A DNA stretch of 64,000 nt from Halosimplex litoreum. Lineage in GTDB: Archaea > Halobacteriota > Halobacteria > Halobacteriales > Haloarculaceae. The translations under genes were made by a program, and so were the position numbers. Each line of letters starts with the position of its first letter. Within the stretch, counting starts at the first letter, position 1. Below the pieces are notes generated by a model. The model worked only from the letters and a program-made list of their open reading frames with translations, did no database searches and was not told the DNA's origin. The stretch is from assembly GCF_016065055.1 (NCBI RefSeq), contig NZ_CP065856.1, positions 1,983,836-2,047,835 on the forward strand, given 5' to 3'. Shown piece after piece: positions 19,850-60,214 of this stretch.

Positions 19850-20028
19850 GGAGGTCGCGACCGCAGGGAGCGACCTCCGACGCGAGCGGGGAACGAAGTG
19901 ACCCGCGAGCAGTAGCGAGGCGCGAACGAAGTGAGCGCCTCGAACCGGAGCGGCGTCCTGTCGAGCGCGAGCGAGACAGGGCTCGGAAGACGAACGCAGT
20001 GAATCTTCCGGCGAACGTCGGTGAGCCG
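19850..20028 (+). repeat. cluster of six small hairpins with a shared apex motif
   Basis: Six hairpins follow the ahcY stop. Stems lie at 19850-19858/19870-19878 (9 bp), 19886-19890/19902-19906 (5), 19916-19923/19935-19942 (8), 19957-19962/19975-19980 (6), 19985-19990/20004-20009 (6, with an extra C.A mismatch) and 20009-20012/20025-20028 (4). Four apices are 11-nt copies of GANCGNAGNGA (for example GAACGAAGTGA); two are 12-nt variants with a four-base tip. Stems differ in sequence while the apex is constant. The remaining bases to 20107 show no gene. Confidence 0.65.
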
Positions 20029-55093: not shown

Positions 55094-55142
55094 CGAGGTC
55101 GAGCGCAGCGAGACCTCGATTCGAAGGCGACCGAAGGGAGCC
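55094..55142 (+). repeat. two apex-motif hairpins
   Basis: CGAGGTC/GACCTCG (55094-55100/55112-55118) encloses GAGCGCAGCGA; GGC/GCC (55126-55128/55140-55142) encloses GACCGAAGGGA. Both apices fit GANCGNAGNGA with complementary positions 3/9 (G-C and C-G). They sit in the 340-bp gap 54998-55337, which otherwise shows no gene; a variant GAGCGACAGCGA lies just downstream. Confidence 0.55.
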
Positions 55143-59935: not shown

Positions 59936-60016
59936 GCCAGGATGGCCGAACGGTAAGGCGCACGCCTGGAAAGCGTGTTCCCTTTGGGATTCTGGGTTCA
60001 AATCCCAGTCCTGGCG
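59936..60016 (+). tRNA. tRNA-Ser (anticodon GGA)
   Basis: A complete 81-nt class II tRNA. The acceptor stem GCCAGGA/TCCTGGC is perfect, with discriminator G60016. The anticodon stem CACGC/GCGTG holds loop CTGGAAA, giving anticodon GGA. A long variable arm and the T-arm CTGGG-TTCAAAT-CCCAG follow. No intron and no encoded CCA. A TATA-like CATTAACC lies about 30 nt upstream. Confidence 0.95.
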
Positions 60017-60085
60017 CTTCTGACGCGAACGATCCGGCGAGCACCTCGTGTGCTCGCCATCGCAAGCGTTCGAACCGATTTCGAG

Positions 60086-60185
60086 TGGGATTTGAACCCC
60101 TGGAAGTCGCAGCCCCGGAACGGTCGAACGGAGTGAGACCGCACGCCCGGAACGTCTTCCTCCGGTTCAAATCCCAGTCCTGGCG
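60086..60185. repeat. tRNA-derived palindrome and att-like direct repeat
   Basis: 60164-60185 is an exact 22-bp direct copy of the tRNA-Ser 3' end (59995-60016). 60086-60098 is an inverted copy of the T-arm part. Together with GGAAG/CTTCC (60102-60106/60156-60160) they form a palindrome 60086-60176 centred at 60131, capped by the hairpin CGGTC-GAACGGAGTGA-GACCG (60121-60141). It could be the scar of a small integrated element or a transcribed structure. A separate stem GGCGAGCAC/GTGCTCGCC lies at about 60035-60058. No gene is seen. Confidence 0.75.
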
Positions 60186-60214
60186 TACCACCTTTTTCAT
60201 CGTCGCCCTTCGTC

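Follow-up and report, generated by a model that had tools for sequence, protein, structure and literature searches.

Behind a tRNA-Ser(GGA) gene of Halosimplex litoreum lies a 169-bp unit that holds no genes and no integrase. It consists of a linker, a palindrome and a further copy of the 3' end of the tRNA. The features are listed below in the coordinates of the window, the whole 64,000-nucleotide stretch of DNA that was analysed.

59936..60016, + strand: tRNA-Ser(GGA) gene, the integration target (Rfam; the ARAGORN call is 59936-60017)
59997-60016, + strand: tail of tRNA-Ser(GGA), from the T-loop to base 73 (set by the repeat boundary and the tail boundaries of the family)
60017..60185, equivalently 59997-60165, + strand: 169-bp inserted unit, absent at the orthologous tRNA in the relatives G003, G007 and G009
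60017..60082, + strand: linker, counted as insert from the empty-site comparison
60036-60058, + strand: linker hairpin GGCGAGCAC/GTGCTCGCC, part of the insert by the empty sites
60083..60099, + strand: left arm, an inverted copy of the T-loop and 3' T-stem
60086..60176, + strand: whole palindrome, as a match to covariance model R1 (64.3 bits; other strand, 34.5)
60102..60106 with 60156-60160, + strand: covarying inner stem, GGAAG pairing with CTTCC
60126..60136, + strand: apex GAACGGAGTGA, a C(GNA)G triloop with flanking G.A pairs, at the palindrome centre
60166..60185, + strand: displaced tRNA tail, T54 to base 73 (the exact repeat begins at 60164)

The last 22 nucleotides of tRNA-Ser (59995-60016) are repeated identically at 60164-60185, and the left arm at 60083-60099 is 94% complementary to positions 59994-60010 of the tRNA gene. 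The arms of the palindrome (60083-60109 and 60153-60179) are 27 nt long and 81% complementary, and its centre falls at 60131 in GAACGGAGTGA. An earlier reading made from the sequence alone had claimed the exact 22-bp repeat, an inverted T-arm copy at 60086-60098 and a palindrome with GGAAG/CTTCC centred exactly on 60131. All three claims held, with the inverted copy measured at 60083-60099; the linker hairpin was absent from that reading. Folding of 60018-60190 was compared with that of shuffled sequences and gave z scores of -5.1 and -5.7 for the two strands as DNA and -4.65 as RNA. The palindrome is the sole significant match in the window to R1, a covariance model built from 47 related palindromes.

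Filled and empty sites in related genomes

Comparison with relatives shows that the 169-bp unit was inserted, and copies of the tRNA tail mark its two ends. In G003, G007 and G009, the end of the orthologous tRNA-Ser gene joins TACCACCTTTTT directly (flank TACCACC), and in the window these same bases come after the tail copy and not after the tRNA. The downstream gene sequence is common to the window, G003 and G007; in G009, agreement with the window flank is limited to the first bases past the tRNA.

G003 belongs to the same genus as the window genome and is rated 7% contaminated. Unit number differs between these two genomes at ten tRNA loci with matching flanks, and so varies between related genomes. 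Clean filled and empty junctions within the genus were seen at four loci: the Ser (169 bp), Val(TAC) (129 bp) and Tyr (141 bp) sites are filled in the window genome and empty in G003, and the Gly(GCC) site (155 bp) is filled in G003 and empty in the window genome. At tRNA-Met, the window genome has two units and G003 has one. The second of the two aligns with the sole G003 unit, and therefore the extra unit is the tRNA-adjacent one. Gain on the tRNA-proximal side is the simpler account of this one clear case, although proximal loss in G003 would give the same picture. The empty sites in relatives support a mobile, tRNA-targeted origin, as the sequence-only reading had proposed. Genomes were compared one per species, without experiments or expression data.

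One family behind many tRNA genes

Of 40 relatives, 25 contain the pattern GATTYGAACC-N(40-70)-GGTTCRAATC, and none has the reversed control. Almost every haloarchaeal copy lies just 3' of a tRNA gene, on the same strand, and ends in the 3' sequence of that tRNA. Where ARAGORN initially gave no tRNA, most copies are preceded by a matching T-arm copy, as would be the case with intron-bearing tRNA genes; the remaining exceptions are L047 and L145. The fetched loci, which were partly gathered through this pattern and are not a random sample, contain 173 units, 169 of which are 69-243 bp long, and units of the family occur behind 32 tRNA species. A single family sits behind many tRNAs, each unit bearing the tail of its own tRNA together with its T-loop and T-stem in inverted copy. 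Recurrence of the unit at orthologous and at other tRNA genes rules out a chance origin. The earlier prediction that the palindrome would follow other tRNAs with their own T-arm sequences was borne out, and the outcome that would have refuted it (the same 250 bp conserved in all relatives, with no tRNA-matched copies elsewhere) was not observed.

R1 matches 140 of 145 Halobacteria genomes, with 1-34 matches each, and, outside the class, none of 204 genomes of the same phylum; these scans used stricter filters, and 186 of the negatives were not itemised singly. The five R1-negative Halobacteria genomes have no tail copies at 43 sampled tRNAs, with none at the 15 sampled in one of the five. The absence of tail copies from the five negatives indicates that tail copies and palindromes go together. 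In the window genome, 25 of the 27 R1 matches follow a same-strand tRNA at a distance of no more than 500 bp (expected, 0.27%), and tail copies within 500 bp, weak ones included, were counted for 18 tRNA genes. One of the two remaining matches is a displaced tRNA-Ile unit, whose tail copy lies 9.1 kb from its tRNA, displaced by an integrated element. This element (G000 908081-917427, locus L217) is a 9.1-kb insertion with an SNJ2-type integrase between tRNA-Ile and the palindromic unit, and its attR has no palindrome.

A search of a phage collection gave no match to the unit, and a plasmid search gave just three weak, partial matches. Fifteen viral contigs with the bare pattern were rejected, as they overlap tRNAs or lack the motif. 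Nothing describing the element was found in the literature searched, most subscription papers being outside its scope.

Several loci depart from the common plan. In the tRNA-Ser units of G005, G004 and G006 (L002, L005 and L006, respectively), the tail copy is split by an insert of ~60 bp forming a double hairpin, and L005 has a further hairpin inserted into the left half of its palindrome; such inserts seem to be another family of small palindromic inserts. In Halorubrum rubrum (L154 2990-4230), a 1.1-kb stretch with two small genes lies between two tail copies behind tRNA-Gly and ends in a degenerate palindrome. One gene has a weak PemK/MazF-like match (22.0 bits, under the Pfam cut-off), and the other encodes a MarR-type winged-helix protein; this is the sole gene-bearing unit seen. 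Dense clusters of tRNA genes, many low-scoring and possibly viral, were noted at G003 5114186-5116692 and G006 2778898-2783297.

Anatomy and fold of the unit

The boundaries of the tail copy are sharp. Per-base identity to the host tRNA is 93-100% from position 54 to 73 (157-160 units, 32 tRNA species). On the 5' side it is 0.92-0.98 at 52-53 and 0.22-0.46 at earlier positions; on the 3' side it is 0.64 at the first base past 73 and 0.32-0.47 thereafter. For the left arm, the match to its own tRNA exceeds that of shuffled controls at 57, 59, 60 and 62-65; past 65 it does not. The arm was located using positions 54-61, so that only 62-65 are unbiased; here the match reaches z values of 3.9-7.5 and declines through 84, 66, 41 and 41%. 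The acceptor part of the tail (66-73) is conserved, yet it has no pairing partner in the unit. The units have a T-rich start after the tRNA end, and their orientation is nearly fixed, with two (L017 and L035) read as reversed.

Pairing within the palindrome is kept while its sequence changes. In the alignment, 90.8% of cells are paired, and covariation is 0.260, compared with 0.104 after shuffling and no more than 0.057 in slid controls. The rows were chosen for anchors near AGNCNC and GTCT, which fixes those columns and leaves three variable inner positions free; these pair at 92, 89 and 59%, against 33-37% when shuffled. The pair changes comprise 111 double-sided and 10 one-sided events, the latter summed by hand from the pair table, and the scarcity of one-sided changes points to DNA rather than RNA pairing. 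A wobble test at position 57 for which strand folds was uninformative (10 versus 11).

In the clearest single-stranded DNA folds, a 10-bp stem leads through a 2x3 internal loop to a 5-bp stem, beyond which come a mismatch, a small asymmetric loop and a GNA-capped apex; of the four sequences checked as single folds, two were less clean. The mismatched loops are conserved. The linker, inner stem and apex vary independently of one another, and the apex is similar within one genome and different between congeners. Elsewhere in the window (19859-20002 and 55101-55139), away from tRNAs, GANCGNAGNGA hairpins with GNA triloops and flanking G.A pairs occur in clusters; across the whole window, those with a complementary N-N pair number 9, against 1.9 in a Markov control.

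Possible mechanism, rival explanations and known systems

We propose that the unit is a mobile mini-element, itself non-autonomous, whose integration site is the tRNA T-loop, a reading for which support and doubt are closely balanced. The data demonstrate insertion and specificity for the tRNA; the folded site and the enzyme are inferences. In this model, a circular or single-stranded unit would recombine with the tRNA near G53/T54, the tail carried by the element would restore the tRNA, and the original tail would be displaced downstream. By analogy with integron attC, the palindrome may fold so that its two T-loop copies pair into one core site for a recombinase acting in trans, probably a tyrosine recombinase, which is unidentified. 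Units may also be excised precisely, as suggested by the good conservation of the displaced tail, and the way in which linker, stem and apex vary independently suggests a contribution from conversion or template switching as well. Several points count against the model: no recombinase has been linked to the units, the universal Int3908 also occurs in the negative genomes, SNJ2-type viral attP cores are acceptor-end sequences with no palindrome, a circle of 120-170 bp is short for duplex recombination, independent variation of the linker, inner stem and apex is not predicted by simple cut-and-paste, and the integron core GTTRRRY is not conserved.

Among candidate enzymes, the universal tyrosine recombinase Int3908 was rejected as a sufficient cause, since it is present in all 24 genomes tested, the five negatives included. 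Homologs of SNJ2-type integrases are more numerous in 19 positive than in the 5 negative genomes (P value, 0.001), in counts that include fragments and in which one split gene in a negative was hand-counted once. This excess possibly just mirrors general mobile DNA load. Total PF00589 counts showed no difference between positives and negatives (P value, 0.13).

The rival that survives best is replication and repair: template switching and gene conversion between T-arms (shared TTCRAATC) would spread the units, hairpin-templated correction would maintain the match of palindrome and left arm, and there would be no dedicated recombinase. It remains possible, and is favored by the independent exchange of linker, stem and apex, the likeness of apices within a genome and their difference between congeners, the double-sided pair changes and the gradual fading of the left arm across 62-65, as from partial correction. 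However, it does not account well for the exact boundaries (T54 and base 73) of 157 units, the almost fixed orientation, tRNA-proximal addition at Met, or the conserved mismatched loops, which correction should erase.

An RNA element, cotranscribed with the tRNA as a structured trailer or terminator and keeping the tail copy for folding, is unlikely. For it speak the strong folding as RNA, the fixed orientation and T-rich start past the tRNA end, and the similar plan of the Escherichia coli tyrT repeats, the source of RtT RNA. Against it, units are present or absent at the same tRNA within one genus, tail positions 66-73 are conserved without a pairing partner, and Rfam gives no match to the unit. 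It is less favored because double-sided pair changes far outnumber the wobble-type ones. The sequence-only reading had suggested a mobility of the unit's own or a processed RNA; the former is now favored and the latter is not excluded.

Least tenable, and in our view very unlikely, is the leftover of a larger island that integrated at the tRNA and then lost its genes, leaving two att sites: tail duplications usually mark such islands (PMC8371274, PMC9897764) and the window genome has its SNJ2-type element at tRNA-Ile, but unit lengths are narrow, the interior is common to units at 32 tRNA species, the attR of the 9.1-kb element has no palindrome, and the palindrome was not found in six integrase-bearing haloviruses. 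The unit does have a displaced tRNA 3' end at its distal boundary, as in an island, but no integrase or other genes between the tails. The earlier suggestion that only about 170 bp of an integrated element remain therefore failed, given the narrow lengths and common interior.

The mini-element reading invites comparison with integrons, whose attC sites are imperfect palindromes with inverted core boxes, UCS and VTS (PMC2727003). The palindrome likewise has two inverted core boxes, an unpaired central spacer, a paired inner box and a variable apex, and conserves pairing rather than sequence. The folded-palindrome criterion (paired outer box, spacer, paired inner box, variable apex) is met, apart from the two less clean folds. 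Insertion beside a fixed entry site may also be shared with cassettes, tRNA-Met being the one clear case. However, the core GNNTYGAAC/GTTCRANNC does not meet the integron criterion (RYYYAAC/GTTRRRY), and the units are almost always gene-free whereas cassettes usually carry genes. Since these core-sequence and gene-content criteria fail, the units are not filed as integron cassettes, despite their integron-like working. Unlike in integrons, the entry sites are the T-loops of many tRNA genes and the outer arms follow the host tRNA; integrons are recombined by IntI on the folded bottom strand, whereas no IntI has been identified for the units, in which folded-strand recombination is inferred. A bolder reading, which we think less likely than not, is a haloarchaeal system on the integron principle, with folded single-strand sites, many tRNA T-loops as fixed entry points, outward-growing arrays and occasional gene cassettes (for example, the weakly PemK-like pair of Halorubrum rubrum).

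The units point to an integron-like class of tiny mobile DNA that is undescribed in the literature searched, with their mobility as likely to be upheld as not. If true, this would be a class-wide, gene-free mobile element outside bacterial integrons, one that restores each tRNA gene on entry and has a folded palindrome for its site, and it would account for many of the short fragments of tRNA tails seen in haloarchaea. The 140 positive and 5 negative genomes, together with tractable haloarchaea, make the enzyme search direct.

SNJ2-type elements (SNJ2, HHPV4, Halfgib1) resemble the units in entering tRNA genes, duplicating the 3' end and being confined to Halobacteria, but they are 10-20 kb long, encode an integrase and have no palindrome. 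Their viral attP cores are acceptor-end sequences of 13-15 nt, whereas unit copies begin at T54, and R1 had no match in six integrase-bearing haloviruses. An SNJ2-type attP was rejected as the parent of the units on core position and the missing palindrome. SMR-A/B of Haloquadratum walsbyi are small mobile repeats of ~80-110 bp (PMC3119063). Like the units, they are small and gene-free, with inverted repeats and unknown mobilisation, and SMR-A targets palindromes; unlike the units, they insert into IS605/PATE palindromes without target duplication. The outer arms of the units are tRNA sequence.

The E. coli tyrT repeats (RtT RNA, RF00391) are 178-bp tandem repeats, each ending in the tRNA-Tyr tail and, like the units, containing part of that tail in inverted form (GGGGAAGGAT ... 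ATCCTTCCCC). Unlike the units, they occupy one tRNA locus and their copy starts further 3' in the T-arm. R1 did not match these repeats; RF00391 matches them and gave no match to the window or L001. Inverted T-arm copies also follow bacterial or other archaeal tRNA genes at L134 861-1229, L093 669-826, L122, L127 and L270 711-1623. The same plan occurs in a Clostridia bin (behind tRNA-Pro) and a Lachnospiraceae bin (behind tRNA-Ala), with only weak R1 matches. The E. coli, Clostridia and Lachnospiraceae look-alikes may be convergent, and those of E. coli and Clostridia raise the question of whether tRNA tails are repeatedly landing sites for palindromic mini-elements. At L134 and L093, two tandem units each end in the tRNA tail, as in the tyrT repeats.
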